A program made the position numbers and the translations under genes. From positions 1,364,001 through 1,428,000 of the forward strand of contig JACONQ010000007.1 in assembly GCA_014281115.1 (NCBI GenBank): a stretch of 64,000 bases of DNA, written 5' to 3'. A model generated the notes under the pieces. The model was given only the letters and a program-made list of their open reading frames with translations, had not been told where the DNA came from and did no database searches. This document shows, one piece after another, positions 1-25,042 of the stretch (positions are counted from its first letter, which is position 1; every line of letters begins with the position of its first letter). The DNA comes from Laburnicola sp. R22_1 (taxonomy: Eukaryota > Ascomycota > Dothideomycetes > Pleosporales > Didymosphaeriaceae).

Positions 1-147
1 AGTCTAAGGTAGTAAAAGATTAGGGTAGAGTGTATAAGGCTACTTAGTAAGGTAGAGTAGTAAAAGATTAGAGCAGACTAGATAAAGCCACTTAGTAAGG
101 TAGAGTAGTAAAAGATTAGAGCAGACTAGATAAAGCCACTTAGTAAG
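1..147. repeat. 48-bp tandem repeat, about three copies
   Basis: A unit containing CTTAGTAAGGTAGAGTAG recurs at positions 43, 91 and (diverging) 139, which gives a 48-bp period. The copies are nearly identical even though everything around them is RIP-mutated, so the local amplification is probably recent or was maintained by recombination. The array runs off the window start, so its full length is unknown. Confidence 0.85.
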
Positions 148-339
148 GTTGGCGCTAGGGCAACCTAGTATCTAGATTTTTTAAGTGTTAGAGTAGTTTA
201 TAAGGGGTGTCTATTATTAAAAAAGTAAAAATAAATAAAAATAAATACCTAAGAGGTTATAGGCGAATTAGTCTTTAAAGGTAACGTAATTGTTATTTAT
301 TATTATTTATTATTATTTAGAGATATTTAGAGTGGCCTC

Positions 340-672: not shown

Positions 673-675
673 GTA

Positions 676-950
676 TTAAAGATCTTCGTCGTGTTAAGAT
701 TCTAACCAAGGTCGAATCCGCACCATACACAGAGAGGAGTAAAATAGAAGGCACTAAAACCTAGCACCTAGCACACAGTGGTAGTAATAAAATATACACA
801 AAATAATAATAATTTTATTATTAACGTTTTACACAGCGGTATTATTAATAGTAATTAATAGATAGTCTACTATCTGGCATAATTAAGTTACATATTATCT
901 CTTAACTAGTAAACTATTAGAGAGCCGTAGTAGACTACGAAGTCGCAACC
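676..950. repeat. Retroposon-like repeat S, copy 1
   Basis: This is the longest of three dispersed copies (others at 11,098 and 20,054). It begins at GATCTTCGTCG and ends at AGTCGCAACC. Shared internal blocks include CATACACAGAGAGGAGTAAAA and a final CGCAACC. No clear target duplication surrounds this copy; only a weak AGTGTAG match is seen. Copies 2 and 3 do have long perfect flanking direct repeats. A GGTCGAATCC block resembles a tRNA B box, but I cannot show a matching A box. Confidence 0.75.
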
Positions 951-2280: not shown

Positions 2281-5200
2281 AGATAGGTCCTAAATTAGTG
2301 TCTACTTACACAGCTTCTAGCAAAGATCCTACTATAGGCCCTTTAATATAGCTACCCTATAGATTTGTTAAGAAAGAAGTTCTTATAAAAGACCCTAAAT
2401 AGTTTACGTAAAAATAGTTAGAAAGCTACTTATTATTACTAGTTGCTAATATATTAGACTAAGCGGCGCCTACTAGTACTAGTCTATTATAACTAGAGTC
2501 TAGCATTCTATAATAGCCTACTCCTATATTTGCTCTAGCAAATAGGTTTATATCTATTAAAGAAGTATAGAAATAGGTAAGAATAAAGTGTAAAGAGGAA
2601 GAACTAAGTTATATCTAGACTATTAAGATAGTATATAACTAGGAAGACTATTCTATACTTAAGAAGACTTTAAAATCTATTACTACTTATATAACGCTCT
2701 AAATGTTACTAGTCTTCTACCTACCTAGTGCAAAGTCACTATATAAGTATACTAGAATAAATAGATAGAACTTTAATTTTTAAAAGTAGGATTGTAAACG
2801 CGTTTTTAGGCAATTATTTACTTATTTCTATGTGTATAACGTTAAATTAACTACCTAGGGGTAGCACGACAAAGGCTTTTATCTTAAATAATATGACAAA
2901 AAAACCAGAGCCCCCTGCTTAGTAATTAAAAAGAGCGTGAAAAAGGTAATTAAAAAAAAAGCGCGTTCAAACTGCTAAGCGAGTTTGGCGGTCTTGGCGC
3001 GCACGCTTATTTCTATAATAAGCTTACTAAAGTAGAGTTTATAGTTGCCTATATTTTAAAGATAATATATACTACCTAGGTAATAGAAATATAGTCCTAT
3101 TATAGTTAAGATCTAACTTAGCAAAAAACTTAGGCTAAATTATAAGAAAAAATACTTAATACCCTAGGCATACTAGCAGAACTCTATTAATAGGCCTATA
3201 ACTCGCTTAAAGAATATAGGTAGAAACTAAATCAGTTACTAATAGAGTTATTAGACTATATCTGCAACTATTAGAATAAACTTAAAATATCTTTAGAAGA
3301 TAGTTACGTTATAGACTTTATAAGGTATTTTAATAGTAAGATAACTTTAAAGTTATATTTATTACCTATTAAACGCTAGAATATAGTAGCTTTTATTAAA
3401 GAGTCGGCAATAAATATCTATCGCAGCAACTAATACGCCAAATTAGTAAGGGATAATATATAGACTATATTAAAATTAAAATAGCTTAAATAAAAATAAT
3501 CTAACTTTAAAAGGGAAGAAAAACCCTAAAAAAAGCTAAGACCTCTAATTAGAAGTAAGGGGGGCTAAAGCGTTGCACTAAAGCGTAAGACAGCGCTAAA
3601 GAGCGCGTAATAATAATTACTTACTACTACTATAGTAAAGAGAGGCATCTCTATCTAGATTATCCTAATCTAGATAAGCTATTAGCTCCTAGGTCTAAGG
3701 AAGCTTAGAATGTAAAGGAGAAGCTAAAAGAGTTAGGAAAAGCTAAAGGGCAAAAGAGATCTTAGCTAACCTTACCACCTATCTTAAAATAATTATTAGC
3801 TACATTAATAAGGTTCTAGAGGTTAAAAATATTAGTTATTTATGTATTTAGGTCTATAAGCTACCTAGGAGTATAGTAACTCTAAAGGTTAAAACTAGTA
3901 ATTAAGATAATACCAAGGCCCTAGTTAACTCTAGCTTTACCTTAAATTTCCTTAATACTAAATTAGTATAAAAAATAGATACTAAAGTAGTCCTACTAAT
4001 AGAATTACTAGCAAAGATTGTAAATAGCTCTCTAGTAAAGGTTTATAGTACTACTATTCTTAAACTAGAGCTAATTAACTCTTATAGTTAGAAATGTACT
4101 TGGAATATTTCTTTTATTATTACTAATCTTTATAAATATAAGATCTTCCTATGGCTTTCCTAGCTTAACTAGGAGGACCTAAAGCTAAGCATTGCAATAT
4201 ATAGGGTGCTTTTTTAAAGCAATTCTAATAGTTATAGTATAAGCTCTAAGAAGATAGCTATTAAGAATATAGATAAATTTAATCGCACTATATATAAACT
4301 AATAATAGCAGTTTTTACCTATTTAATTAGTGATGCAAATTATATAGACCAAAGTAGTCCTAATAGGCATAAAGAGTTACTTATTCTGAATAAGTACTCT
4401 AAGTTTGCTAATATTGCCTTAAATAAGAATTATACAATAGTACTAGAGTATAGTCTAAGTAACTTATATATAAACCTTAAGCCTAATACTTAACTACTAT
4501 ATTATCCTTTATGTAACCTCTCTATATCTAAGCTTAAGGCTCTATAAAAGTACGTAAATAAATATTTAAAGTAAGGGTAGATTCGCCACTCTAAGTTGCC
4601 TACTAGGGCGCCTATCCTCTTTATAAAGACAAAGGATAACAGCTTATAGCTTTATATTAACTATTATAGGCTAAATAAGATTATAAGTAAGAATTATAGT
4701 ACTCTTCGACTAATCACTAAGTTCTTAAGCTATTTAGCTTAGGCTAGAATCTTTTTAAAGTTTAATCTATAGAAAGCGTATTATCACATTTATATAGTAG
4801 TAGGTAATAAGTAAAACACTATATTCTATACTAGATATAGACACTTTAAGTATATAGTTATACCTTTTAGTCTAATAAATATATTAGCATAGTTTTAGGC
4901 GCTAATTATATAAACACTAGCTAGATTAATTAATATAATCTATATTATATACTTAGATAATATCTTAGTCTTCTCTAATATAAAGAAAGAATATAAGAGT
5001 TATGTTTAGGAGGTTTTAAAACGCTTACGCAAGGCAAAGCTATTTATTAACCTTAAGAAGTATAAGTAGAAGACTAGGTCTACTAAGTATCTAGGGTTTA
5101 TTATTACTCCTAAAGCCTTAGCATAGACTCTAAAAGGATTAAGGCAATCTGATAATAGCCTATACCTAGATTAGTTATAGATATCTATGTGTTTATTAGA

Positions 5201-7510
5201 TTTATACACTATTATTGTTAGTTTATTACTAACTTTTTAAAGATTGCGCTTCCTTTAACCTATTTAACCTAGAAGGCGTCTAGTAGCGCTGGATTAGGCC
5301 ACACTATAAGGCGTAAAGAAAGTGTTAAAGTTAATATTAGCCTAAAAGGCTGCTCTACTTTTTAGTAATTGCGCGACGCCTTTTTACAAGTACCTATTCT
5401 TATACACTTTAAAAGTAGGAGATAAACTTATATTAAGACTAATATCTCTAAAAGGGTAGTTAGCACTATTTTAAGCTAGTTAAGCCCTAAGAGAGATAGA
5501 ACTAAGTAATAGCGGCCTATTAACTTCTTTTTAAAGAAGTTAGATAGTGCATAGTATAACTGTAATATATATAATAAGAAACTCCTTATAATTGTGCAAA
5601 GTGTTATACACTAGTAGAGATATTTTAATTCTTAATATTTTAAGATCCTTACTAACTACTATAATCTTAAGTAGTTTATAAAGACTAAGATATTGCAATA
5701 ATATTATATATAGTCTTATCTCACTTTCTTTAAGTTTAATTTTATAATAATATACTATACTAGAGTTATAAACCCTATAGACCCCCTCTTCTAGCAGCCT
5801 AATTATATATAGGAGGCTTTTAAGCCTAAATATAAGTATAATAAGGCTTTTATAAATTTTCTAAAGGAGATGCTCTCTAAATAGAAAGTAAATAGGATTA
5901 TAATTTCTATAGTATTAATAAGGGTATATAGTAATTGTAAGAGCAATACAAAGCTTAAGAAAGAAATTTAAGCTTTTTACTAGCATAATAGCAGTAACTT
6001 AGCATATAAGGCACTAGAGTAGCTACTAGAGCTAATTAAGAATAAGTTTAAAGACTTTAATACAGAGTCTAATAGTCTGCTACTAAGTAGTTCTAGTACT
6101 GCTAGTTCGCGCCCTTTTAATCCTATTAAGCTTAGAATGCTAAATAAAAGGCTAAGGCAATATTATTATATTATAATAGTCTTCTAGTAAGGCATTTTAG
6201 TATTGCGTAAACTCTTAAGCGCGTTAAACGCAAGTACGTGTGGCAGAGAATATTAACTAATATTACCTAGTATATATATAACTATAAGCGTTATTAACGC
6301 TCTAGATTAAAGCGCTATAAGCTATATAGGCTCCTATAACTCTTACCTATTCCTAATAGTCCCTAGCAATATGTAACTATAGACTTTATTACTAACCTAC
6401 TACTAAGTAAGTTCGCTAGCATTATATATAATACTATCTTAGTTATTATAGACTAATTTTAAAAAATAGCTTATTATATACCTACCTAGATAGATTAGAA
6501 TAGTATTAATTTTGCTAAGGCTTAGATCTATAAGGTAATTCGCCTTTATAGTCCTTTAGAATTAATAATATCTAATAGAGGTCTAATAATGCGTTTAACG
6601 TATTAGGACACCTTTAACTATTATCTTAACTTACAGCGAATTCTTACGTCTGCCTTCTACTCTTAGATAGATAGACAGATATAATATTAAAATTAGACAC
6701 TTAAATAATGCCTTTATATCTTTTACATTCTAAAGTAAGATAATTAGGCTTTATAGATCTCTATTATAGAGTTTGCCTATAATAATAGCTAATATGCGGT
6801 TACTACCTACACTCTATTGTAGGTTTACTATACTAGCAATCTAAGAAAGTTTAGTAGGCCTTAATAGACGCTAGGTAATAGCAAAAACCCTAAGAGTTAG
6901 GTAATTGCCTCTAGACTAATTTTAATTAAAATAGAGTGCTATAAGAAGATTAAAGTGTTAAATGCCTACTAGAAGGCGCTTACTAATAAGAAAAGGCTTC
7001 CTTTAAAGCTTAAGATTAGAGATAAGGTGTAGGTTTTAAATTATTATATAAAGTTTATAAGGCTAAGTATGAAGTTAGATTAGAAGTTTTTAGGCCCTAG
7101 TATAGTAAAAGAATATATTAAAAATTCTCCTACTACTTACTAAATAAAGCTCGCTTCTCTTAGTAAGGTACACTTAGTATTCTATCATTTCTTATTAGAA
7201 CTATATAAGACGTGCAGATCTCTCCCACACCTATAAGAGCCTATTTATAATACTTTGCGCTAGTTAGGTAATAATATCTATAAAGTAAACTGCCTTTTTA
7301 ATAGGTGGTAAAAAAGTAATAGATTACAGAAGTACCTAGTAAAGCAGTCTAGTTACTCTAAGGATAACAACAGCTAGAAACTAGCTGCGTTAATTAGTCT
7401 ACCTACTCTTATAGAGTACTAGAAATAGCTTAAGACAATGTTAAAGAGATTATAATAAATAATACTAGCACGAATAAGGTAAGGCTATAGACAACCTTTT
7501 AAAAAGAAGG
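2280..7510 (+). mobile_element. RIP-mutated Ty3/gypsy retrotransposon with chromodomain
   Basis: Plus-strand translation, broken by TAG/TAA codons, still shows Ty3/gypsy domains in order. A CCHC zinc-knuckle relic lies near 3,625-3,670 (YYYYSKERHLYLDYP, cysteines mutated to tyrosine). A retropepsin relic lies near 3,920-3,965 (ALVNSSFTLNFLNTKL, from a DSG-type site). Reverse transcriptase spans about 4,560-5,110, with a YxDD-box relic ILDNILVFS near 4,950. An RNase H region follows, then an HHCC finger near 6,180-6,320, an integrase core near 6,360-6,720 (YVTIDFITNL), and a chromodomain relic near 7,275-7,430 (LQKYLVKQSSYSKDNNS). A purine-rich tract near 7,490 is a candidate polypurine tract. 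LTR pairs could not be matched. Cys>Tyr, Asp>Asn and Gln>stop changes are what RIP produces. The element is dead. Confidence 0.85.
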
Positions 7511-9240
7511 GGATACCTAATTATAGTTGGGATTATTTATTTTTTAAAATTATAAGATATTTTTAGTGTTATCTTTTACCTTATTTACCTTTTACCCTAG
7601 AAAACCTAGTATGTATCTCTTATAGGGAGTTTAGGACTATATAGGCGGCCTTAGAGTAAAGTGTTTTAATAGATTAGTATAGAGTACTTTGCTAAGATAG
7701 CTAGAAGATAAAATTATTACTAAAAATTATTATAAGTCTTGCTAGGTATAAGAGAAGGATAATTAGAACCTTTTAATTTCTATTCTAGAAGACGTGATTA
7801 GCGCTAGTTACTGCTAGTGAAAGGCGAATATTATAGACTATTAAACTAAACTACCTATAAATACTAATTTCTATCTAATAACTACTATTAGAGATCTAGA
7901 TTGCCTAGTAGTGCTAGTTAGAAGCTAGTAGTCCCTATTAAACTATAACTACTACTATTTACTAAAAATTGTCACAAAAACTAGCAACTATATACTACTA
8001 GAAAAGGACAGCCCCTCTACTTTACACGTAGCTACTACTTAGAGTCTAGGCCTATAGTAGTCTTCTTTGCAGACTTATATTCCTTTTATAGATTCTAACT
8101 TATATAAGGGTAATACTCCTTATAGATCTAGTTGCCTTAGTTAAGGTATTTAAGTATAAGGGTAGTATAGGCTATTTTTATCTTCTCCTTCTTACCTTTA
8201 TAGAAATTAGGACTATAATATAAAAGGGTATTAAGTATAGCCTAGCACTTATTATCTCTATTAGGTCTAGCCTTCTAAGCTTAGCAACAGACTAGGATTA
8301 TAGAAGTAGGAACTAAAAAACTAATATTAGACGTATTATAAACCTTAGTCTCTATGCGCGCTATATAGTACTTATAAGTAGTCCTTTATACTAGTTAGTG
8401 CTAGTTAGAACCTATTAGTTACTATTAAGAATTAGAGAAGTAACCTATAACCTTAAAAGCCCTATTATTATTACTCTTATAGTACTTAGCTAAAAGATTA
8501 CTCTTTTAGGCAACCTTATTATTAGCGCGCAAATAAGAGTCTAACTTAAGTTAAGATTGCGAATAAGAAGTGTCTAGGTTAGTAGTGCTTAAATAAAAGT
8601 AATAATAAAAACTATAGCCGCTAAAATAGGTACTATTCCTTATCATAGCCGCTATATTCTAGTAATTCATAATAATTCTCTCCCATGCAACTATACAAAG
8701 CTGTATAGTATTCTACTAATTCTTATTAGTTATCTCTTCTTTAATTGCAGGGATAGGCTAGTTATATTCTTTAAAATTACGCTTTAACTAGTTATAGAAG
8801 TCTTTCTCTACTAAGTTTATCTATAATAGGATTAGTTAGGGCCTAATAGTGCTAGTTAGCGCTAGTAGGTACTAATTAGCACCTAACAGACAATAATAGT
8901 TAAGGAAGGAACTTACTAAGTAACAATTCTTACTACTAAACTAATAAGCTTTATAATAAGCCCTACTCTTGCCTTTAAAGCGCTATTTAAAGTTAAAGAT
9001 TATATAAATAGATAGAAAGCACTAATAGTCTACTATACTAAGAAATCTAGCAGTATAATAACTAATATATTCTAGGTAAAGGATGCCTACTAGATTAATT
9101 ATATTATAATTTATAGGCTAGTAAATGGGTTTAGAGTATCCAGCTTAGGTATAGGGTTAGGTTGGGGTCGCATAGACCCTAGGTATAGATTAGATTAGGG
9201 TCGCATTTAGGTTAGATTGTATAGACTTCTAGATGTAGGT
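7511..9240 (-). other. RIP-mutated coding relic, unknown (minus strand)
   Basis: From about 9,060 down to 8,050 one minus-strand frame stays readable over several hundred codons if TAG/TAA codons are ignored. A segment such as LVEKDFYNxLKRNFKEYN is followed by CIVAWERIIMNY. The stops are almost all of the RIP-derivable kind. I do not recognise the protein. Near 9,140-9,230 the plus strand has degenerate repeats of GGTCGCAT with TTAGGTT-like words. Confidence 0.35.
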
Positions 9241-12200
9241 TAGGTTAAAGTACCTATTAGGGTTGCTTAACTTATATTATATAAAATTAATAATAATAAG
9301 ATTAGTAACTTTAGTTACTCTTTAAAGGTGTATAAAAAAGCAATTTAAGTAAAAGTAAAATTAACGCTATTTTACTATTAATACGTATATTTATTATATC
9401 TTATTATTACTAACGCTGTAGTAGTGCTAAGGCCTTAACTACTTTTATAGTAGCTGCCCCTAGTAGAAAGAAGTTAGTAGCTTACTATCTACAACCTTAG
9501 AACCTTATATAGTTTTAATAGTCTCCTTATTAGCTAGTAGCTTATATAAATTGTCTTCCTTATTTAATAGTGCTATGTCCTCTAAATTATCCTTCTCTAT
9601 TAGAATCTAATAACTTTATAAATTACTTGTTAGCTATTATAAACTTAACTATTATAACCTTTTAAATTGTTTAAGTAGCGAGATTATATCTTTAATCCCT
9701 AATTATATCCTTACTAGTCTTAAAGATACGCTTAGTACCTATTTATAAAATCTACACTACTAGAATATTCTTTATTATCTATGCAAGTTAGGAGTAAAAT
9801 ATTTAATAAACTTTCTACTATACTAGTATATTAAACCTATTACCCTTTTTTACTATAAATGTACTTTGGTATATTTCTTTTTCTATTTAAGTTAGGCCTA
9901 AGTTGTAATTAATATCCAGCGTAGCTAAACTTTAGCTAAAGGTAGAGAGGCTACTAGACTATAAACTAAGTAGTAAAGGAGGCTTTTAAAACTATTTAGT
10001 ACCTTGTAACTATCTTAGGTTAGTATTTAAGACTAAAGTAGGGTCCTTAGCTATTAGGCTATTATAGTAATTAAGATACTTTAGGAACTATTAGTAGTAT
10101 ATATACTTATTCTAGGTCTTCTATATTTTATTCTATGTAACTATTAGTATATTACTATAATAAATAGCTATAATTATAATACCTTATACACTATAAGCTT
10201 TTATAAAGGATTTAATATTATTATATAGTTAAATAAGAAACTCTTCTCCTTATTTATTCGTAAGTAATACTTGCGCAACCTCTCTTATCCTATCTTAGCT
10301 ATAGCCTATATAGCTTCTAGCTATCTAATATTGTTTAACTCTTTAATAAGCTTATTATTTATCTTATCTATAAAATTAAAGAGTTAGTTATACATAAGCT
10401 AGATATATAAGACCTAGAGTTTTTAGTTTTTACTTAGAAAGTTTATAGCCTCCTTAAACTTTTAAAGTATAGAGGTAATTAATTTAAGATGCAACTATTT
10501 TAGGGCTAATAGTTAAAGTTTCTTAAGGTCTTTAAAGTCTGCCTCTATAGTGTCGCTATAAGTAAAAGTGTTTAATCTCCTAGTTATCTTTATTATAATC
10601 TCATTCTCTAGCTATATATTAATATTTGCCTAAAGCTTTAGTGCGCGCTTATATATATTATATATAGAGTTCTATCTTAATTAGATATCTTAGATTGTAC
10701 ATAATTACTTCTTTAGTAGTGTATTGCTTTATATTATAAGAAATTACTTAAATTACTATAGTAACTAGTTAAATATAATATAAATAGTATAGAGCTATAC
10801 ACTAGTTAGTCTATAATAACTTTCTATAATAATAGCTAATATACCTTATAAAGAAACTTTAGGATAGATATCTACGCCTAGATTTTATTTATATATTGCT
10901 GCTATAGCGTCTCTTTAGAGTTAAGATTAATAGGCGCTAATAACTTAAGGTAATAGATAATATCTTAAACTATAAGATTAATAATATAAGTAAGATATAG
11001 AATTATGTTTTCTTTTTAGTTCTAGGTAATATTCTTCTCTAATAGTTTGTACTAGACGCTCTAAACTAAAGTACTATTATTACTAGTATTATTATATTGA
11101 AGATCTTCGTTGTGTGGAGATTCTAACTAAGGTCGAGTTCGCACTATACACAGAGAGGAGTAAAACAGAAGGCACTAAAACCTAGTACCTAGCACATAGT
11201 GGTAGTAACAAAATATATACAAAATAACAATAATTTTATTATTAACTTTCTGCACAGCAGCATTAACGACGGCAGTTAATAGACAGTTAGGCATAACTAA
11301 GTTACATGCCATCTCTTAATCGGTGGACCGTTGGAGAGCCGTAGTAGACCGCGGAGTCGCAACCTAGTATTATTATATATAATTTCTAAGAGCTTCTACA
11401 TAGTTTCTGTGTCCTTAAGGACCTATAGTACCTCTAATGCTATTAATACTCTAGTGTGGCTGCCACGCATTAGTATAAAGTTAAGTAGCTTCTTTTTAAG
11501 CTGCTAAGCGTTATTAATATAGTAACTATTAATAGCTAGAAAGCTAAGGTAATTAGTTATAGACTTCGCGTTAAGTAAAATAGAGAGTTTAGTTACCCTA
11601 CTATTATTGCTAAAGATAGCTGCCTTAGTAGTATTAAATTTGTTTAGGAATATCTAGTAGAACCTATATTAGCTAGTTATTACAGCGTTAGGCCTAAGAA
11701 AATAGAGAAAGCGTTAAAAGGATAGTTACTCTACTATTTAGAAGGACTAGTTATTATTAATTACTATCTATATAAGTTTAGTTTTAAACGCTTATAGAGA
11801 GTATATAGGATATAAAATAGCTATCTGCTTTTTTTATACTAAGAAGTAAAAGTTCTTTTATAAATAGGCTTATTCTACTATATATATGCTTAGGATCTTA
11901 AATAGTTAATAAGGTGCTTAGTACAAATTAGCTAGGTACTAGTAGAGTTAACGCTTAGATGTTGTAGTATATAGCTGTAGTTAAGATAGAATATATATAG
12001 ATAACTAAAGGGGTACTTTACGCCCTTCTAGACTATAGTCTAGATAATACTTATATAAAGGTAAGAGTTTTAGTATAGGTTATAGGTTTATTTATTTTTA
12101 GCTTATTAAGTATTAAACTACTACGCGTTCTATATAGCAAATATCCTTCTTTCTATCTCTAACTCTTAAAAGTTTAAAGAGGGATGTTAGATAAGACAAA

Positions 12201-12620
12201 TTATCCTACTTTCTAACCTATTAGCCTATAGGGCTAGAATTCTATATCTAAAAAAAGTATCTAGTAGTAGGGCAACTAGTTTATTAATATAGGACTGTAT
12301 ATTAATTTCTAGGGTAGGTATAGCACTTAATATAGCACTTAAGAATATTAGTGTAATAAAAGATATAATAACTAGTTAAATAGTTATTTAAGAGAATAGT
12401 AGTTTAAAAAAGGATAGGATAAACTAAATTCTATAATATTAACTATAGTAGTATTTAACTAATATTAAGGTTAGCTAGAAATAGCGTGTAGCGTATAGTG
12501 TGCTAATAATAAGTCAGTTTTAGATAGCAATTAGCTTATTACTATACTACTATAGGTAGTATCTTTAGTAATTAGTATATAATTATTAGCTATAATAATT
12601 AGCTATAGTAAAATTATAAC
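9241..12620 (-). other. RIP-mutated repeat block with minus-strand coding relic
   Basis: AT-rich sequence interrupted by retroposon-like copy 2 (11,098-11,364). Minus-strand frames on both sides of that insertion read as degraded protein (for example KAAIFSNNSRVTKLSILLNA near 11,600), so the retroposon landed inside an older element. I could not assign a family; a retrotransposon is the likeliest source. There is no intact gene. Confidence 0.35.
11098..11364. repeat. Retroposon-like repeat S, copy 2, with 14-bp target duplication
   Basis: A 267-bp copy starting TGAAGATCTTCG and ending AGTCGCAACC. It is bounded by a perfect direct repeat TAGTATTATTATAT at 11,084-11,097 and 11,365-11,378. A 14-bp duplication is too long for LTR elements (4-6 bp) or Tc1/hAT transposons (2 or 8 bp); it fits target-primed insertion of a non-autonomous retroposon. 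It is less mutated than copy 1 and keeps a GC-rich block near 11,320-11,360. Confidence 0.8.
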
Positions 12621-12627
12621 TTTAGCT

Positions 12628-13930
12628 TCCCTTCTAGGCAAGAGTTATAAACTACCTCCACTTATTTAGTTTTTAAGTAGCCCTACTGCGTTTAATTACT
12701 GCGTTTTTTCATTGCGTTACTAGCGCCTATATAATATAATATTACATACAAGCGCTAAGCCCTAGGACTAGAGCGCGTTAAAGTTTTTCTAACGCCTCCC
12801 CTAGCTTCTAAGACAACTAACCCTATAATAATAATACTCTACCCGTCTGCCTACCTATTGCGTTACTAAATAATTAACTACTTAGAACCTCTATTCTACT
12901 CTACTACTATAATATATAATAAATTGCGCGTGCGCTCCCTACTCCTAACACTAAATAGCACTCTACTATCCCCTAATAATAACTTTTTAACCTCTAGCAC
13001 ACTTTTCTAGTATTAATCTTATTCTACTTATCTTTTATAGAAATTCTACAGAATAAGCGTATACCTATATATACTCTATACCTCTAGTAACTACTTTTTA
13101 TATATTTCTTTTTTATAGCAAATCGCTAGCTATTTTAAATTATACTTAACCTTTTCTCTATACCTTTTACTACTATATCGCTTTTAGATTTAATTAAACC
13201 TTGCCTCTTGCTTACTAAAAGCGCTCTAGTAATAACTATCTCTAATATAACTAAGAACTAGATAGCTAAACTAGCAGAGAGAGAGCTATAAGTTAAAATT
13301 CATAGTCCCTAAAGCACCTAGGTATTGCTAGACGCCGCAATAAGACAAACTAGCTACAGTAATCTATTTGCTACACAACTTATACTATGCCACTATATAT
13401 CCTATAAGGGTAATAGTAGTAGGCATCTAACCTTTATAATACCTATTTTATATATATTTATTATTAGCGTCTAGATTATACTTCTTATTATTAGCGTAGT
13501 TCTACTTATTATCCTTATTATATATATATAGGCGCGTAACTACCTATCCTATAGAAAGCGCGTTGTTTAGTTAAGGGAAGGCTATTAATTAATATATTAT
13601 AACTTTAAGATCTTACGTAATAATTAGCTATATATATATGTAAGAATAGATAGATAAAGATAATATATATCTAGTTGCGGATTTTATATTACGCGCGTAG
13701 GCAATTACGCATTATATTATCTTTAACTTTAGTATCTATAGACTATAGTACACTATAATTAACTACCTTATTAGTATTAGTATAAGGGGCTAATTTGTAT
13801 GTACTAACCAATAGTTCCTAGCCTAACCTATCTTACTACTTTACCTTTTTTAATGCGTTTTTAGTACACCTATAGCTTTCTCTTATAGCGTTGTACCATA
13901 TCCTAAAGGTCTGTAATATTTCTCTTCCTA
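12628..13930. repeat. Left arm of ~3-kb imperfect palindrome
   Basis: This arm is the reverse complement, with many transitions, of 14,490-15,703. Matching landmarks are TTTTTAAGTAGCCCTACTG (12,671) against CAGTAGGGCTACTTAAAAA (about 15,632), TTGCGGATTTTATA (13,675) against its complement near 14,730, and CTATCTTACTACTTTACC (13,829) against GGTAAAGTAGTAAGATAG near 14,568. Similarity persists over about 1.3 kb, so this is far more than a short terminal inverted repeat. No clear target duplication was found at the outer edges. Confidence 0.85.
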
Positions 13931-13964
13931 ATAACTTAAGCTTATCTTATCCTATGTGCTAATT

Positions 13965-14068
13965 ATTATCTAAAACCCCCTTAGCACCTAAGCTCCCCTT
14001 ATTATCTAAAACCCCCTTAGCATCTAAGCTTCCTTTATTATCTAAACTCCCCTTAGTACCTAAGCCCC
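13965..14068. repeat. 36-bp minisatellite, three copies, in palindrome centre
   Basis: Three tandem units begin ATTATCTAAA and contain CCCCCTTAGCACCTAAGC. Period is 36 bp, with one to a few differences between copies. It sits in the roughly 560-bp single-copy spacer between the palindrome arms and is richer in C than its surroundings. Confidence 0.8.
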
Positions 14069-14489
14069 TAAAGTTTAAGAAATTCTTAAAGTCTATATCC
14101 TTATTTATAATATTAGAGTTATAACTATCTAGTAGCTTCTAGAAATAAACTTTAAGCTCCTCTCTATTATTTTTAATTTCCTCTTTATACTTTTTATTAT
14201 TATTTTTCTTAATATACGCCTTGTTACTATTAAGCATACTATCCTTACTATAGATAATAAGGTTAGTAGAAGAACTAGACTTATAGCAACTAATAATTAT
14301 TAGTAAAAGTGTATAATAAATAAGTGTAATAAACTTAAAACTATTTATTATTAGTAACTATTACTAGCTTCTTAGTAATTAGACCTATATTGCCTATGCT
14401 ATTATAAAAGTTCTCTTACTCTTTCTTATTAGCCTTACTCTTAAAGCTATTAGCCTTAAGCTTTTTTAGGCCTATCTTATATCTAAAAG

Positions 14490-15703
14490 AAAAACATTGC
14501 AAACCTTTTAGTATATAGTATAACACTATAAGGGAAAGCTATAGGTATGCTAAAAACATATTAAAAAAGGTAAAGTAGTAAGATAGGTTAGAGACTATTT
14601 GTTAGCACGTGCAAATCGGCCTCTTATACTAATAAAGTAGTTAATTTTAGTGTACTATAGTCCATAGGTACTAAAGTTAATAATAATAATATAACGCGGT
14701 TGCCTGCGTATAAAGTATAAAATCCGCAACTAGATATAGATTAAATCTTTATCCATCCTTATATACACAGTATATTTAATTATCACATAAGACCTTAAGG
14801 TTATAATTTAGTATAGCTATTTCTATAGCCATCCCTTGTCCTAACAACGCTATTATTACTAGGCAGACAGTTATACGTCTATACGTGTACAATAAGAAAG
14901 ATAATAATAATAGAGCTAGCTAAAATTAGTATTACAAAGGTTAAACGCCTAACATCGCTAACTATATAGTAATAAGATATAAGTAGTGTAGCAAATAGAT
15001 TGTCTTAGCTAGTTTTCTAGCTAGTTTATTAGAGTCCCACCACATTAATAAGTATACGGGGACTACCTATATAGAATTAAACTTATAGCTTGCTCTCTAC
15101 TAGTTTAGTTGCCTTGTGCTTAGCTATATTAATAAGGGTTACTAAATATATTTTTAAAGGCAATAGGAGAGGATAGGCAAAGGTTATAAGAGGCTCTAAA
15201 AGAACAAAGTAAGGATATATAACCTAGAGAAGGTGTAGTATAATTACCTAAGTAGAATCTATACAAAATAGCTATAAGAAGTGTTAGGCATATCTAGGTA
15301 CACGCTTATACTATAGAATAGAGTAACATTTAGTATTAGAAGTAGGCGCGCGCATAATTTATTATATAATACAGCAGTAAAGTGTGCGTCTAGGGGTTCC
15401 AAGTAGTCAATTATTTGGTAACGCGGCAAAAGGTTAAAAGGTAGGTATCAATTATCTAGTAACGCAGCGGGCGAGCGGGTAGACAAGGTGTTATTATTAT
15501 AGGTCGTCTTAAAAGCTAGGGGAGGCATTAGAAAAACTTTAACGCGCTCTAGTCCTAGGGCTTAGCACACACATAATATTACGTAATAGTATGTGGGCGC
15601 TAATAACGCAATAAAAAAACGTAGTAATTAAACACAGTAGGGCTACTTAAAAACTAATAAGCAGAGATAGTTTATACTTCTGCCTGGAAGGGGCCTATCT
15701 TAT
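14490..15703. repeat. Right arm of ~3-kb imperfect palindrome
   Basis: Inverted partner of 12,628-13,930. Near 14,500-14,640 it contains a block (GGGAAAGCTATAGGTATGC, then ACGTGCAAATCGGCC) whose much less mutated relative lies at 49,310-49,470. Near 14,485-14,540 it contains a second block related to 29,488-29,545. Near 15,405-15,475 the motif TCAATTAT..GGTAACGC is directly repeated. Confidence 0.85.
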
Positions 15704-16769
15704 ATATATTACGTAAAAGCTTTTTATATATACTACTATAACTAAAGATTTATTTACTTATATAACTTCATAGTATAAAAGGGCCTTTTTTTCTTACTAG
15801 TAATAATTCTACATTTAGCTAGGGCTATTTAGTAGGTCCTTAGATTAACTTTATTCTTAGTTTTATTCTACTTTTTATACATAGCTATTAGTTTTACCTC
15901 TAATTAGTTGCCTACTTTTTATTAAATAACTAATATATAATAATAGGATATAATAATATACTACTTTTTTAATTCTTAAAGTAGGACTATTTAAGCTCTT
16001 CTTCTTCTTTTATAAGCTATTAATACTTTTACACTTTAAAGAGTAGTTAGTAATTCTTATTATTATAAAGCTTCTTCTTAAGCTAATATTATATAGCTTA
16101 ATTAGCTAATTTAGTAAAGTCTAGTACCTTTTCTTCTTTACTATAGAGTGTATTACAAAATCTCTACGCAATAATATAGGCGCTATTACTAAGTGCACCT
16201 TTAAATAGTACTTTATAGTTAGTAGAATAATTTTTCTAAAAGCTACCTTATCTATAATATAAAAGAATAGTACTAACCTCTTTATTGTTAAATATAAAGC
16301 CTTATTTATATTAGTATATAATATAATAAAAGACTATAATTACTAGATACCTTAGTAAGACCCTCTTACTTATCGCGCTTAAAATTTGCTAGTATCTATA
16401 CGCTACTACTTAGGAGGCCCTTTAGGACGTTAGAAGACTCTTTCTTAATAGACACTATAGTATAGGATGTAATAATAGTATATAATAACTACAGTTAATA
16501 TTATAAAAATAATAAAAATATTATTATTATTATAAAAAGTAGCTATAAGGGCCTATGCGCATAAGTAAGGCACTAACAACACTAGCGTGTTTTCTTTACT
16601 TACCTTACCGCCTACTTAGCTACTTTACCTTACTATCCTTCTAGCTACTTTTTTAATACTCTATAGCCTTAACTACTATATAATCTTAATTTGTAAGATA
16701 ATAGTATACACTAGGCTGTCTAGATACTCTAAACTAGTTACTAGTAGATCTTAAGTAAAAAAGAAAAAG
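15704..16769 (-). other. RIP-mutated stretch, possible minus-strand relic
   Basis: AT-rich with no open frame. Between about 16,290 and 15,960 a minus-strand frame reads as degraded protein (VLFKGALSNSAYII followed by a lysine/glutamate-rich segment), with stops of the RIP-derivable kind. Not recognised. Confidence 0.3.
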
Positions 16770-17245
16770 CTGCTAGCTACTAAAGCTACGTAAAAGGCAC
16801 CTTGTAAAATACTACCTACTATACTAAAAGAAAGTACTACTAGAAGCTAGGTAGTATATTATTATTATAGCTATTTATTATATATATATTCTAATAATAT
16901 ATAGCTATTACGCTTAGAGAAATTAAAAAGTACCAAAAGAGTATTAAGCCCCTTATTAGTAAAATGCTATTCTATTACCTTATTAAGAAAATAGCGCAAA
17001 ATAATAATAAAAAAGATTTGCGCTTCTAGTCTATTACGCTAGCTACTCTTTAAAAGGCAATAGAGGCTTTTCTAGTTAGAATATTTAAAGGTATTTTTAT
17101 ACCACTCTACTCCTACTATAAAATAAATACTAATACCTTTAAATACTAATATTAACGCTATTTATATAAAATAGGTTACTATATAGGCTAAGGATATATA
17201 GCTAGCAAATAGGTACTATAAGAAGTATATAGATACTAGGTAAAT
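16770..17245 (+). pseudogene. RIP-mutated histone H3-like pseudogene
   Basis: Plus-strand translation from 16,902 gives AITLREIKKYQKSIKPLI, then KKIAQ, DLRF-stop-S, and KAIEAFLVRIFK up to about 17,092. These align in order with the H3 histone fold (alphaN LREIRRYQKST, alpha1 and loop1 EIAQ..DLRFQS, alpha2 EAYLVSLFE). After an apparent intron, 17,138-17,210 reads TNINAIYIK-stop-VTI-stop-AKDI-stop-LA, matching the H3 C-terminus TNLCAIHAKRVTI.AKDIQLA. Each stop and the His>Tyr change are C>T or G>A outcomes. A basic segment near 16,776-16,810 (KAT-stop-KAPCK) may be the H3 tail in another frame before an intron. Alpha2 differs from canonical H3, so a divergent variant is likely. Confidence 0.75.
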
Positions 17246-20053
17246 AGTAAGGCGCTTAGTTAGATTTAATATATATATTTAACACTAAAGCTATACTTTT
17301 ACTATAATAAGTAAACGTAATAATTGCTACTATAATAATAAGGATATTTTTATAGTAATTTACTATAAAAATAATATATAGCTAATGAAAAATATAATTA
17401 GTTAGATCTAATATAATCTAGTTTGTGCAATCCTAACCTAACCTATAGCCTATATAACTCTAACCTAACCTATATCTATTACTAGCGCAAAATCCATAGG
17501 TAGAGATTAGGTTAGAGACAATCATGAGTATCTTAATCCATTAAATAGTAGGAGAAGAGGAGACATAGAATGGTGTTGCACGACTGTTAAAATATTCTTT
17601 ATTTAAATAAAGTTTAAATCTGTAGAGTCTTACATAAGGAAACCTAACTTTAACCTAATCTATATCTATTTGCCAGCCTAACTACTACTACCTAATATAC
17701 TTAATTACCTCTTATAATGCCCTATATTACTCCGCTACCTATTCTCTAATAATAACTGCCTAAAACTTCTAGCCTAACTTAGTAAGCTTAGCGTAGTGTA
17801 ATAACTACCTAGTACTAAAGTAACTAATATACTTCTAGCCTGAACTAGTAAGCTAAAACTTTTACTAATTTAACCGCCTATAAATAGTATCTTAAGGGAG
17901 GAGTAGATATTATATTGCTATTTACAGCTAAATAAAAATAGTTAATTTTAGTATAATATAAGAGTAGTACACAGCCTTATAGGGTAAACCTTTTAGAAAT
18001 AGCTAGTATAGTTAAAAGAGATAACTAAATTAAGACTATACTAAGATAGAGGATAAGAAAAGGACCTAGGGGGCCCTTACTTATATAGTAGGTAGCGTAG
18101 GGCATAGGCCTACGCTAACTACGCGCTAATACTAACTAAGAAAGGCGCCTTCTATAAGGTAAAAGGCGCTATTAGGGTGTGAAAGAAAAGGTAATAGTAA
18201 ATAACTAGTAGGGAGGCAGACACAAACTGTTATAAAAGTTATACTCGCAAATAACCTAGATAATAACTTAAGCTTACGCAGCTACTATATAGTTACTAAA
18301 AATATTATAAAAGGTAATAGTAAAATTATATTATTAGTATTAAGTATCTAAATCACTATAAATTACAATAAAAAGGCCTTATTAATAAGGCTAGCAAAAT
18401 CTTAGGGCAACTTATTAACAAAGTAGGTAATAACTCTAAGAAAGCTTATATTATTTAGTAATATCTATAGATTATAACTTATACTTATTTTACTTTATAT
18501 TATACGCAAAAGCTCTATAGCCTTTTTCTTTTACTCTGCTATACTTATTTATATATATTTTAATAGCGTTATATAGCTTTTTAGTAGGACGCGTAAAAGA
18601 TTAGTTTAATTCTATATTAGAAGGCCCTAGGTAGCTGCTAATATTACTATTATAAAGCTAATGTCCTTAGCAATTACTTAGTTAATAAAAGCACTCTAAA
18701 GCTTCTCCTTTTACTATAATAAGTGCGACACTATTAACTACGCGCTAGCAGCTTTATCCTATAGATTTTAAGCCTTTATAGCCTCTATAATAGGCAATAA
18801 TCTAGTGTCTAGATTAGCCTTATAGGCCTTTTTAAGGTAGACTTTAATATAAGCTATACTATTAACGCGCTAGTAATTAGCTATCCTTTATATAAGATAA
18901 TAGTCTTTATATAGCTATAAGATTATCTTACTAACTATATTATTCTTTAGATATTTTAACTTAGCTCTATATTACTATATAGATGCAGGCGTGCGCTTGC
19001 CTTTAAGTTATAATTTATAGCAGACTTTATACCTAACTCTACTAGTAATTAGATAGTAATTATTATGCTAAAGATAGTACTAATTAATATTAAAGGCCTC
19101 TTCTATATAACGCCCTAGCTATTAAATATATAACCTTTTTATACTACCTAGAGTACTCTTATATAATATAGACAACTCTAACTTACTATTAGTAGTAGTA
19201 AGAGTAGTATTAAGCCTTTATAACGCAGTAATATAGTAGGAATAATAATTAATTATACTTTAAGACAATTATAAGGCCTAGGACTATGTGTTTTATAATA
19301 TATTATAGGCAAAAGCTATTAAGTTATTACTTAAGAGGCACTAGAAAACTCTGCTATAATAAAGGCCTACTGGGCGCCCTTATAATCTAAGCTTATACTA
19401 TACTAAAAGGGGCAAAAAAAGGCTAAAAATAGCCTCCTAAAATACTAAAAGGTTACGTTAAAATCTTATAAAAAGGCTCCTATATTAGGAAAAATTTTAT
19501 GCGTGCATAAGCACCTAGGGCACCTAAGTAGCCCTATATAAGGCTACGCACGCCTACGCTCTAAATACGCTTAGAGCGCACTAGCAATACTATTTTTTTT
19601 AGTATGTGTATATATAAGGTTGCGTAAGGATGCGCACCTATATTGCTAGTACACCTAGAGTAGCTAGAGTAGCTAGAGTACTCTAGACGTCTATACTATC
19701 TATAAAATACTAATTAATAAGTAAATAAAGCTCTTTAATTAGCTAAAATTTAAAAAAAGCTTAGTAATGTACTTAGTAAGCTTTAAAAAATTAGGATTTT
19801 TTTAAAGTATAAAGTTAAAGTCTTTTACTAGATAGTAATTACTAGTTAATATAATAGTATTAATTACTAGCGTATTATATAGAACTTCTACCTAACTCTA
19901 AATTCTAGATTTTGTAGGTTTAAAAATAGAAAAAATATAGTTTTATAATTATTTAAAAGAATTAGATTAGGCGAAAATTAGTAACTTAGTAAAGAACACT
20001 ATTTTAAAAAGTATAAACTTTAATAACTTTTTAACTCCTTTACTTTTATTAAA
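17246..20053. other. RIP-mutated AT-rich repeats, with minus-strand relic
   Basis: No intact genes. At 17,685-17,850 the block ACCTAATATACTTA plus R1 modules repeats sequence from 2,165-2,235 and 340-672. A short less-mutated patch lies near 17,520-17,640. From about 19,330 to 18,430 one minus-strand frame is readable for roughly 300 codons with only RIP-type stops (for example KAYKANLDTRLLPIIEAIKA). I do not recognise the protein. Confidence 0.45.
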
Positions 20054-20253
20054 GATCTTCATCGTGTGAAGATTCTAACTAAGGTCGAGTCCGCACTATA
20101 CATAGAGAGGAGTAAAATAGGAGGCACTATAACCTAGTACCTAGTACATAGTAGTAGTAATAAAATATACACAAAATAACGATGATTTTATCGTCGGCGT
20201 TCTACACAACAGCATTGTTGACGGCAGTTAATAAATAGTCTACTATCTGGCTA
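20054..20253. repeat. Retroposon-like repeat S, copy 3, with 16-bp target duplication
   Basis: A 200-bp copy beginning GATCTTCATCG and ending in CTATCTGGCTA. It is flanked by the perfect 16-bp direct repeat CTTTACTTTTATTAAA at 20,038-20,053 and 20,254-20,269. It lacks the last ~70 bp found in copies 1 and 2. If this is a 5' truncation, as is usual for retroposons, the element lies on the minus strand. Confidence 0.85.
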
Positions 20254-20672
20254 CTTTACTTTTATTAAAACCTTTTTAAAAATTTAAATAATATATTATT
20301 AGTACTATATTTTTATATATAAATATTACGTTATATATATAATAACTAGTAAAATAAAGAGCTTTTTATTAATTACGAACTAATTACGTAATAAAAATAC
20401 TATTCTCAAATTAAATAATTAAAGACTAGTATTTTTCTATAAATCTATTTAAAAATTAAAATTATAGCTTTACTAGTAAAAAGGTTATAAAGCTTTAAAA
20501 AAATTACTTATTTAAACTATTTGTGTATATCTACGCAAGTCTATATATATTTGCGCATTTCTAAGTATTTTTATACTAGCAAATTGCTTATATAAAAATA
20601 TGCAAGTATACGCATGTCTACGCATGTCTACGTATAGTTAAGCAGCCTCTCTAGAAAAAACTTTCCTAATAG
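20254..20672. other. Edge of the RIP compartment
   Basis: Very AT-rich up to about 20,640, then normal GC content within a few tens of bases. A TAG at 20,670-20,672 closes the frame of the following gene. It could be an intron acceptor, but the base-composition step suggests the upstream part of that gene has been lost or replaced. Confidence 0.6.
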
Positions 20673-21296
20673 GGCAACATCAAGCTCGCGTTCAAGCATT
20701 CAAACGCCGACTACGAGAAGTACGAGCGCCTCGACACTTATTTTGTGCAGCCAACCAATGCGTACATCGACGAATGCATTGAGGGTGAGGCACTGCAGAA
20801 GCACATTGCGGATAAGTCCAGCTGGTCCTTCTTCATGATCACGGGCATCCGAGTGGCGCGGAAAGGGAGCAAGGAGGCGGAGGAAAAGCGAAGTACAGAG
20901 GTAGAGGCGGGGCCGGAGGTGTGAGTCCTACGCAGCAGCTCTCCGCTTTTTTTCAAGGCCCGGCTGACATTGTTGAGCAGAGATGTGCCAGGTGTGGCTG
21001 TTGTTGAGGCCACTGGCAATACGGCGAACGAGAAGGACAGAAAGACCGCACAGCGCGAGATTTCCGATTTTGTGTGGGCGGTACGCCTGGCCAAAGTGCA
21101 CAAAGGGATTTTGATGACGGACTGGTCTATCGATCCCTACACGCATCGTGCTACTTTCACTGTTGGCGACAGTGAGGAGGTCGATGTTGAGATGGTGGTC
21201 AAAGACGAAGGCTTAGGGACGTTCAAGGTGGTTGACGATGACGAGCTGGGAGAAGCCTTCGTGATAGAGGGCGAGGACTGGGTTGATCCAGAGTGA
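20673..21296 (+). pseudogene. Fungal gasdermin-like protein, 5'-truncated
   Basis: Two exons, 20,673-20,920 and 20,981-21,296, flank a 60-bp intron with donor GTGAGT, branch GCTGAC and acceptor CAG; the reading phase agrees across the junction. The product keeps about 187 residues, with a central SFFMITGIRVARKG motif, then DFVWAVRLAKV and a strongly acidic C-terminal tail (DDDELGEAF...). From memory of the family these features match fungal gasdermin homologues of the RCD-1/HET-Q1 type, pore-formers that cause regulated cell death after a protease removes a short C-terminal piece. Expected length is about 250-280 residues, so the N-terminal membrane-inserting part is missing and the gene is probably inactive. 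The convergent S8 protease gene next door is the classic genomic partner. Family call rests on motifs and context, not on a search. Confidence 0.55.
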
Positions 21297-21642
21297 TACA
21301 CGAGCGCATTCATTATGCGGGAAACACTTTGTTGAGATGGCAATTGCGTTACTTCGATGACTCGTACGTAGATGCTTAGAGTGTGGATGCACCAGAATGA
21401 TTCCCTAGGTAGCCAAGTTTCAGTTAATTCACTTCCTGGGATTATCGTTATGAGCAGTGCCAGCAGCCAAACATGACCTCCGTTTATTTTTCATGGTTCG
21501 CTCATATTCCAAGTCTGGTCTGCTATACCTGATGCTATAGGCAGGGAATTTCAGATGTTGTTAAAGACTGGCTCAAGTCACACGACTTCTCATTTTCGAA
21601 CTTCTAGCGAGCCAAAAGTTGGGCGTCCCTAACAACGGAAAC

Positions 21643-24600
21643 TCAATTTGCCTCCAGCATCGCCTTCGTAATGTTATACCGCACCCATTCTCTCTTGTTG
21701 GGCTTTTCGGCACCTATGTAAAGCTTTTCGGGGTCCACACAGTCCAAGTTGCCCGTTCGTTTGGAAATGGACTTGAAGATAGCAATCATGCCCAGCATCT
21801 TAGCCACATCCTGCACCCGCGGGATCGTAGCGTTGTCCGGGTGCCGCGAAAAGTCTACAATCAACGCCGCCAGTCCCGCCGCTGCCGCTGTGACCATGCT
21901 CGTTCCGCTCTGGGGCTCCTTCGAGCCCTTGCAGTCCTGGAAGCCCTCACCCAGTAAGGCGAAGTTGTGAGCGGCTGCCCGCCACTCCGGGTTGAAATTA
22001 GAGCTCTGATCCAGCGTATTAGTCGCAAAAATGCACATGGTGAAGAGCTCGTGGCGAGCCGGGAAGGCCGGTGGCCGCAGGTTGCCGTAATTTGCGGCTG
22101 CCGCGAACACAAGCTTGTTGGCTGCTGCTGCCCGCTGCACCGCGTCCTGCAGGGCCGGCGAGTGCTTTTCGAAGCCGGCCGAGATTCTTATAATGTCGAC
22201 GTCACGGTCTTTCTCCGTGGCCCAATCAATTGCCTAATGCAGAAATCAGCTTGTAAGCTACCATTGTTGCTCTCAAATCGCCGAGCAATAGGAGACATAC
22301 CTCAACCATCAATGCCGGCTCTGTCTTTTCGTCCGTGTTGCTGTTCTTGAACACTCTGGCAACATACAACACGCAGTCTGGATAGATGGACAAGATAATG
22401 GTCGCAGTGAGGGTGCCGTGCCAAGTATCGTCGCGCAGTTCGGTATTTTTCTTGTCAACACAGTCCTTGAATCCTACAACTTTTTTGTGTTCAGGATCAC
22501 TTTTGTGGAATCCCGTATCAATGACGCAGACTTTTACCCGCGCACATTTGCCCTTGGCTTTCGGTGCCATGGCGGCTCTCAGCATGTCAGTCTTGTCCAG
22601 CCAGGGACCAGATGTGTACTGTGAATTTCTAGAGCCGCGTCAGTCATGGACCCGTCTCCAATTAAATACAAACATGGCACGAACTTCAACACTTGAGTAC
22701 CCCCTAGGCTCACGCCCTGTCGTCTCGATGGAAGATGTTCGGTTTTCGCTTGCTGGATCAGAGTGTCCCAACTCCTTTGGGACCACGTCTTCATGTAAAC
22801 GCCGTCGTAGCCGTAAACGACGACGTTGGAAATATACGGAGACTTCTGTTTCCATTTTCGAGAAACCTCAAGTAGGTGGTCGGTGACTTATCAGCTGTTA
22901 GCACCTGCAACCCATTCCAATCGCCACCGGGGCGTCCAAGAAGGGAGTGCAACAACCTACAGTTCAAATTCGCGCAGCCAGCGCTCCCTTCTTGCGTCAC
23001 AATCATGCGTCCTTCTTGCTTCTCGCCGGACTCGAGACAGGAAATGAGCACCGAAACCTTGACCCGATGCGGCTGAGCGGACTCTCGGGATAGTGCTTCC
23101 GAGTGCCTGTATTGTCTTGTCAAATCAGCCTGGATCACCCTCACGCATGATATCCAGCAAAGCACCCGTGCGGTAGCAATCCACTCACTGGACATAGATG
23201 ATCTTCTCACTACAAGAGGGTCCTTGCGCGAGGTTTTCCATCAGCCGACTGCGCATTAGATTCAGATAAGTTCGAAAGTTCTCCAAGTCTAAGGCATCCG
23301 CACACAGTAAGCCTTGGCAAAAACACGACTCCGAATCTTGCGGTGGGATTCCCTACCTGGGAGGCACCCAAAACGCAACTCTACTCCGATACATTGGAAA
23401 GGATCCCCATTCAGCCTCGATTGTACCTCAGAAATTGATAACACAGGCTTTAGCGGATCAATGGTGGCCTCCGAGTTTGAAGAGACTAAAGTGACTTAGC
23501 TAAGCCAACCAGACCCAGAGTAGCGAAAGACATGAGGAGCGCGTACTGAGAATGGTGTAAGTGTCTGTCAACGGATTTATGACATCAAATTGCGATTGCT
23601 GGCTAATGACGAGTTCCAAATGAGGCTGGGGGAGGAGGTTTGACGAAAGCTTTCTTCCCGTCTTGAGCATCTCTCGAGGTGCCACGGAGTAGTGGAGTAT
23701 TTGCATATATCCTGGCTTCCATGGAAGTTTGATGAAGTTTCCCTTTGTCTCAATTTTGATCTCGTGTGGGAATTTGTTGTCCATGAAGGCTTCTCGGCTT
23801 GAGTGTGGTAATCGTTAGTAGCGCGGCCTAGGCAAATAATCTGGAAATTGAACCAAGAATTGATAACCACATACCAAATCATAGTTTGCACTAACACCAA
23901 TTCTGTGGTAATCCGGCGTTTGAGGCTCTCTCCGAGCACTTTATCCGCAGTTCTGCCCATAGCATTCTTGGCGTATTGAAGAGCGAGTGCTGCTGCAAGC
24001 TGCTGGACTCGATAAACATCTGCAGCCTAGTAAGCTCTCGGCTTTTTTCGTGTTGATTCATAATCTCTCGTACATGTCGGGGTAACTTTGGAGATTCGTA
24101 TCTGAACCAGAGCCTTGGTACTTGGCTTGTACAGCATCATCTGCCAGGTCTTTCCTTGGTCTGGTACCACTTCCGCTACGAGCAGAGTTTCTTCGAGGAC
24201 TTTGCTGCGTCGTCAGCATACCCATTCCACGGCGAGCCCTTACTGCACGGCTGTTCTTGAACCTACACTTACCCTTGAACTGAAGTTGCTTCAAGTGGGA
24301 CTTTTCCACGTTTTCGCAGCAGCAGGTGAGCTTGAGAGATTTCGTTTTTGGGTCCCAGTCGACGCCTTGACTGAAGGAGGCGGCAGGACAGTCGAGATAA
24401 AAGGCCGATGATTTGGGCTTCCTATCCCTTGGTACCATGAGTTCAATCCCCCCAACTTCAATCTCCTCCACGTTGAAAGTCCCCTCATTGCAGTCGCCTA
24501 GGGTCGAGGGAAATATCTCATCTGAAACAACAAACACTTCCCGGGAGATTCCGTCCAATCCCTCTTTCAGAGCCTGGATGAGACTTGCATTCGGGACCCC

Positions 24601-25042
24601 GTCCTTACGGATAAACCGATTAGTCACGTCCAGGATCTTTACGCGCAAACGAGACTCACTAGTAGTCAATATTCAATGTTAATAGTAGAACGTTTTGACA
24701 CTCAAGCAGGCGGTGCCTCCACGTCATGACTTCTTTTCTCCGCTGTTCCATCAAGTCTGCGGTTTCTGTCTCATTCTGGCTTCTCGACGCCATTTTCTTG
24801 ATGAATCCCTGAATACCGGCTAAAGCGCCTTGATAGGCTTGGACAGCGGGTTCAATTTCTGCACGGCCATTTCGTGCGGCCCAATCCTGAAGCAGCGTAT
24901 TCAACGATGCGATATGTGCCTGAAGATCCGGTTTCCCCCTAGATCCAAGCCTTTCTGGCTCCTCTAGCAATCTAATCAACCTCTCACATTGTGCCAACAG
25001 GATGCTGGGCTCCCAATTGCCCTGCTCGGGCGTGGTGGACAT
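21643..25042 (-). pseudogene. Subtilisin-like (S8) protease with NLR-style N-terminal region, probably degraded
   Basis: The C-terminal S8 domain is clear. Exon 22,301 to about 22,610 carries the catalytic Asp (VCVIDTGF) and His (DTWHGTLTA). A 67-bp intron (22,234-22,300, GTATGT...TTAG) follows, and the last exon (22,233-21,643) carries the oxyanion-type AAAANYGN and catalytic Ser (SGTSMVTAAAAG). The triad is complete. Upstream pieces from ATG 25,042 encode a helical region (LIRLLEEPERLG, then HLKQLQFKG and ALQYAKNAMGRTADK, then WKPGYMQILHYSVAP) of a kind I associate with N-termini of fungal STAND/protease proteins. Frames do not join cleanly: a one-base shift near 24,659, an in-frame TAG near 24,037, and unresolved junctions at 22,600-23,500. 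It lies tail-to-tail with the gasdermin-like gene, so cleavage of that protein is the likely role. Confidence 0.65.

Follow-up and report, generated by a model that had tools for sequence, protein, structure and literature searches.

Fungal gasdermins are commonly found beside proteases: about 80% of the genes adjoin a protease gene and about 63% adjoin an S8 protease gene (PMC10197012). In clusters of this kind, a protease-bearing receptor trims a short C-terminal segment from the gasdermin, and the remainder makes pores and kills the cell (PMC12881547, PMC10197012). Some allorecognition systems, het-Q1/het-Q2 for example, have been proposed to arise by pseudogenization (PMC10197012). Here we describe a gasdermin gene and an S8 protease gene lying tail to tail in Laburnicola sp. 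R22_1, within a stretch of 64,000 nucleotides (nt) that we call the window (C24:1364001-1428000; positions are those of the window unless a C or L prefix is given). The assembly comprises 63.9 Mb in 26 contigs, and this single assembly underlies the split described below. We consider it highly probable that the locus is a cell-death cluster of two genes, of the known fGSDM-Q2L kind, with its gasdermin gene cut by transposon-rich DNA and its protease frame complete. A sequence-only reading of the same DNA had paired a gasdermin with an S8 protease in het-Q style and had taken both to be decaying; our data confirmed the pair and supported that interpretation in part.

The gasdermin fragment and its displaced 5' half

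The + strand gene at 20673-21296 is, by sequence homology, a fungal gasdermin of the RCD-1 branch. What remains of exon 1 (20673..20920, +, 248 nt) is an open frame; spliced alignment with three homologues (P0001, P0002 and P0013) puts the start of homology at 20673-20676, and reading of the codons places an in-frame TAA and TAG immediately 5' of 20673. A 57-nt intron (20921..20977, +) separates it from exon 2 (20978..21296, +), which ends in TGA at 21294-21296. The acceptor is 20977 with P0001, giving 188 residues, and 20980 with P0002 and P0013, giving 187; the acceptor favoured by two of the three homologues is the one that matches the 187 residues of the sequence-only reading. The span given there for the pair, 20673..25042, likewise agreed with our gene models at both ends (gasdermin homology from 20673-20676, protease ATG at 25042-25040), and the two exons, the MITGIRVARKG motif and the acidic tail that it had noted were all present.

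Pfam returned no family for the fragment at E <= 1, and identification came instead from PDB sequences and the protein database. Against PDB sequences (phmmer), the fragment matched Neurospora crassa RCD-1-1 (E 1.5e-21) and RCD-1-2 (E 4.1e-12), and HET-Q1 was absent at E <= 10. A protein search gave 20 homologues at E <= 0.01 with identities of 48-72%; the 13 long ones are 280-306 amino acids (aa), and those named by source are hypothetical proteins of ascomycetes. A profile built from these homologues retrieved 127 proteins at E <= 1e-5 (120 of them listed) from 7998 scored candidates, and among PDB sequences it matched RCD-1-1 (E 2.2e-54) and RCD-1-2 (E 7.5e-42) over the pore-forming part and HET-Q1 (9uv9) at E 2.3e-4. 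Structure was compared through homologue P0001 in place of the fragment: with a weak model (predicted local distance difference test, pLDDT, 57), Foldseek ranked RCD-1 on top at 1.9e-16, followed by bacterial, Trichoplax and mammalian gasdermins, and all 22 matches at E <= 0.001 were gasdermins. A tree built from the fragment and 74 of 121 homologues, each at least 225 aa long, placed the window gasdermin in a 16-row clade (support 100/97) with partners from Ophiocordyceps, Hirsutella, Trichoderma, Pestalotiopsis, Parachaetomium, Xylaria and Gnomoniopsis; both Neurospora rows were distant from it, on long branches.

The fragment is short of about 100 N-terminal residues. The sequence-only reading had reported this N-terminus as lacking, and it is indeed absent from its place; it is not lost, however, as the first 83-86 gasdermin codons lie about 35 kb upstream on the same contig and strand, and the 3' frame remains open. 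Genome searches with P0015 (Byssothecium circinans, 184 aa) placed residues 1-83 at C24:1349356-1349598 (+, 84% identical, no stop) and residues 98-183 at C24:1384661-1384918 (window 20661-20918; +, 71% identical), the second match spanning the TAA and TAG just before 20673. Searches with P0118 and P0001 found the same two sites, as did separate spliced alignments of each half, which together delimit the 5' half to C24:1349356-1349610 (+), outside the window. This left half opens with ATG and aligns to P0015 through residue 86 (69/84 identical), the right half starts at residue 102 in P0015 numbering, and about 11-18 codons, depending on the ends chosen, are on neither side of the gap. The locus therefore holds no unbroken gasdermin gene from N-terminus to tail. 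Apart from a weak gasdermin-like match on C5 (E 0.009), the genome searches with P0015, P0118 and P0001 found no second gasdermin copy.

The left breakpoint falls at about C24:1349578-1349610, at the start of a repeat that shares 76% identity with window 32448-32570, and the right breakpoint lies near 20660-20673. Between them, from left to right, are repeat DNA related to that same window segment, a DDE_3 transposase remnant enclosed by a 29-nt inverted repeat pair (L007:1868-1896 and 3167-3195), DDE_1 sequences that include an open 415-aa transposase frame (L007:5371-6618), and about 30 kb of AT-rich DNA. By composition and dinucleotide indices, which resemble those of repeat-induced point mutation (RIP), this last stretch begins at about C24:1354500, outside the window, and ends near 20660, so that its right part occupies 1..20660. 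A transposon origin of the AT-rich stretch is inferred. As both halves of the gasdermin are still open, the break is probably recent; it is undatable from this genome. The breakpoints, which leave 11-18 codons on neither side, did not reveal a clean insertion with a target-site duplication.

Other repeats were seen around the two halves. Three copies of one repeat, at most about 200 bp long and with 85-87% identity, are in the AT-rich block at 674-878, 11092-11287 and 20044-20251, and a partial copy lies at C24:1349006-1349118, just upstream of the gasdermin 5' half. At L006:1893-7512 (C24:1339893-1345512) is a Copia-like element (RVT_2, SH3_retrovirus) whose end repeats match; the impression is that a host gene lying upstream of the 5' half may be interrupted by this element.

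Beyond the conserved W of the DW motif, the window gasdermin carries a tail of 56 residues with a net charge of -15 (21126..21293, +), outside the RCD-1-like part; the RCD-1-1 match stops at position 236 of the 288 in the family profile. Among 74 full-length-like homologues, 71 have at least 48 residues past the DW column, with a median net charge of -10, in a sample that favours tailed members because the profile used to gather it covers the tail. The exceptions are Neurospora P0118 (19 residues, net +1) and P0122 (18 residues, net +3), and P0117, which has a gap at the column; the W itself is absent from the DW column in 5 of the 74 rows. Since RCD-1 is described as having no inhibitory C-terminal domain (PMC11760362) and the action of HET-Q2 costs HET-Q1 about 5 kDa from its C-terminus (PMC12881547), the acidic tail is the best candidate for an inhibitory segment that the protease would remove. 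This distribution of tails would fit the view that the cleavage-independent activation of RCD-1 is derived and followed the loss of a protease-removable tail.

A further gasdermin-like gene was noted at C5:1489907-1490872 (L010:907-1872), open over 321 codons (283 aa from its ATG). It is closer to HET-Q1 (9uv9, 5.9e-10) than to RCD-1-2 (2e-6) and lies tail to tail with a 630-aa frame with no family name (L010:2319-4211, -); no Pfam protease domain was found in the seven nearby frames scanned out of the 18 others listed. Its product is too distant to be assumed as a substrate of the window protease.

The S8 protease gene and its linkage to the gasdermin

The stop codons of the two genes are 346 nt apart (21297..21642). 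The protease gene (21643..25042, -) has 11 exons encoding about 910 residues from ATG 25042-25040 to a TGA, and in spliced alignment it is apparently intact, with a complete frame. Peptidase_S8 (PF00082) was recognized in two exons (E 1.1e-9 and 1.9e-6; 38.5 and 27.9 bits, cut-off 21.8), namely exons 10 and 11 (21643..22628, -, with intron 22300-22234 between them). As the sequence-only reading had proposed for this subtilisin-like neighbour, the catalytic residues are complete: in alignment with subtilisin, the codons for Asp (22519-22517), His (22420-22418), Asn (22092-22090) and Ser (21900-21898) are as expected.

The same reading had seen frame breaks in the protease and called it decaying, and this claim did not survive. 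A tblastn search with the nearest homologue, P0021 (Hypoxylon sp. CI-4A), gave collinear pieces in changing frames. A purpose-written splice-aware aligner, which covered P0021 residues 3-899 over 25033-21646, resolved the raw frame changes into 10 GT-AG introns of 54-82 nt and called neither frameshifts nor stops; of 885 residues, 515 are identical, there is a single gap of three or more residues (6 aa), and each interruption is extra relative to the homologue. On the - strand, introns 1-5 are 24691-24637, 24272-24200, 24073-24020, 23874-23798 and 23546-23486, and introns 6-10 are 23356-23289, 23188-23107, 22960-22887, 22684-22629 and 22300-22234; intron 1 may have alternative boundaries.

Exons 1-9 (22685..25042, -) encode a region of about 600 residues before the S8 domain, a putative sensor by analogy. 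PF24476, which we take to be DUF7580, was found in four more distant S8 homologues (P0027, P0028, P0031 and P0032) and is not listed for the window protease or its five nearest homologues. Ten of 11 genome matches to P0021 fall at this locus, and the 11th, on C8, covers part of an S8 domain at 39% identity. Further S8 matches, at C8:132391-133164, C3:2655817-2656257 and C8:2467761-2468201, have internal stops that may be introns; the last two are of equal length and near-equal score and may be duplicates.

The pairing extends to relatives. Five proteases stand out in the search (P0021-P0025, E <= 1e-80; the next match is at 1.1e-32), and for three of them a gasdermin of the same species lies on a contig of identical size. 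In O. unilateralis the gasdermin XA68_13556 and the protease XA68_13557 have consecutive locus tags and a contig of 25721 each; in O. camponoti-leonardi both contigs are 523894, and in O. camponoti-saundersi both are 214379. Linkage was judged here from equal contig sizes and locus tags, not from a read synteny map, and on that basis the adjacent gasdermin and S8 protease appear to have been kept together. For Byssothecium circinans, whose P0015 is nearest in exon 1, no protease was among 12 matches from 7997 scored candidates.

Weighing explanations of the locus

If the cluster operates as others of its kind, the N-terminal region of the protease would sense a signal, upon which the C-terminal subtilisin domain would cut the gasdermin near the DW/tail boundary and remove the acidic tail; the freed RCD-1-like part would then oligomerise in the membrane as a lethal pore. 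In this strain that sequence of events would break off at the effector, cut in exon 1 at about codons 83-102, and since some 35 kb now separate the halves, no full gasdermin is expected from the locus.

Several observations weigh against this account of a cut effector beside a complete protease. The split is known from one assembly only. Within the protease, introns 5 (GTACGC) and 6 (GTAGGG) have weak donors, introns 3, 5 and 6 have no branch-like motif, and alignment to the more distant homologue P0024 called for two frameshifts in the middle, where conservation is poor, a result that we put down to low similarity because the closer P0021 needs none. The N-terminal region gave no Pfam domain (ANK, TPR, WD40, NLR), nor did those of the five nearest homologues at trustworthy E-values, and a Foldseek search with its poor model gave no match at E <= 0.001. 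Hypoxylon and O. polyrhachis-furcata had no gasdermin on an equal-sized contig among the gasdermin matches listed.

That both genes are decaying pseudogenes is very improbable. The gasdermin is split, the protease read without introns shows 9 frameshifts and 3 stops, and the two frameshifts with P0024 persist even when introns are allowed; against the nearest homologue, however, the intron-bearing model has neither frameshift nor stop, scores 2315 rather than the 1348 obtained with introns disallowed, and its interruptions have the length, GT start and AG end of introns in sequence that the homologue does not have. All 12 of 12 simulated single-base deletions, made 40 nt or more from the edges of exons that exceed 120 nt, led the aligner to call a frameshift or stop; this control spared exon 7 and the outer 40 nt of exons. 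We consider it very improbable that the gasdermin is whole and its split an assembly error: the block is rich in repeats and there is one assembly, but the halves lie on one 3.28 Mb contig, on the same strand and in the correct order, and with about 11-18 codons on neither side a mere mis-join would be insufficient. The count of 26 contigs for 64 Mb also suggests that long reads were used. We give little credence to continued expression of the 3' part, in which a start such as ATG 20835 would yield a fragment with the tail that ties up the protease or obstructs the pores of a fusion partner; the 187-188 codons of this part are still open, but the frame would be just as open after a recent break. 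Finally, it is hardly credible that chance placed the two genes together. S8 genes abound in fungi, but 21 S8 matches in 63.9 Mb (counts that may be lower bounds) predict only about 0.003 within 5 kb of a point, and the same two families share equal-sized contigs in three Ophiocordyceps species.

Under a further scenario, a protease-only incompatibility haplotype is in the making: with the strain's own gasdermin disabled by transposons, the intact protease can now target that of a fusion partner. We regard this as unlikely. The proposed pseudogenization route assumes a constitutively active sensor; as the protease here is full length, the scenario would further require a sensor that is altered or readily triggered. 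If the scenario were true, mutual rejection would be expected between strains that carry the split and strains that lack it, as between het-Q2 and het-Q1 strains, and the locus would let one step of the route put forward for fungal allorecognition be observed directly. Such loci are known to rearrange, since an rcd-1-2 allele inserted into an rcd-1-1 allele has been reported (PMC10989679).

Together, these data favour a cluster of the fGSDM-Q2L kind with a split effector and an open trigger. On the evidence of one genome, this state could reflect either simple loss within a birth-and-death family or an initial move towards a protease-only incompatibility haplotype. A protease-only, het-Q2-like haplotype could arise from this state. 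The pair alone is ordinary, as gasdermin-protease clusters are already known in fungi; what makes the locus useful is that an effector cut by transposon-rich DNA beside an open trigger offers a testable intermediate toward such haplotypes.

Surroundings of the locus and comparison with known systems

Head to head with the protease lies a VIT and VWA gene (25555-28093; PF08487 1.7e-27, PF13768 6.5e-24), with 512 nt from the protease ATG to the start of the VIT/VWA open frame; the next frame has Asp/Asn runs. A domain scan covering 10 of the 32 listed frames in the rest of the window found an ankyrin-repeat frame (29873-30598), an E1 ubiquitin-activating enzyme gene (34208-37192) and a DDE_1 transposase frame (47006-48406). 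Rfam gave no match at gathering scores over the whole window.

RCD-1 of Neurospora crassa (rcd-1-1/rcd-1-2) belongs to the same gasdermin branch, by the profile E-values given above. It acts when two alleles meet and without an inhibitory C-terminal domain (PMC11760362), whereas the window gene ends in an acidic tail of 56 aa and adjoins an S8 gene, and two Neurospora proteins have only 18-19 residues at that position.

The likeness to het-Q that the sequence-only reading had drawn holds in kind and not by descent. HET-Q1/HET-Q2 of Podospora anserina couple a gasdermin with a short C-terminal extension to the control of an S8 protease (PMC12881547, PMC10989679); in the window pair, the acidic tail and the S8 protease would be the counterparts. 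HET-Q1 is only a distant match to the window family, however, and the window gene, standing in the RCD-1 branch, is not a HET-Q1-type gasdermin; HET-Q2 has 388 aa (PMC10989679), and the protease here is more than double that length. Moreover, het-Q1 and het-Q2 are idiomorphs at one locus, whereas this genome has the two next to each other, with a broken gasdermin.

In the Q2L-fGSDM clusters, as here, a gasdermin adjoins a large S8 protease (PMC10197012). The locus differs from them in that its effector is split and its protease kept, and in that the five nearest protease homologues have no Pfam domain beside S8 at trustworthy E-values; an annotated architecture is reported for just about one third of Q2L proteins (PMC10197012). 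The Ophiocordyceps pairs P0001-P0024, P0004-P0023 and P0003-P0025 share both the gasdermin clade (100/97) and the protease family with the window locus and differ from it in that their annotated gasdermins are full length.

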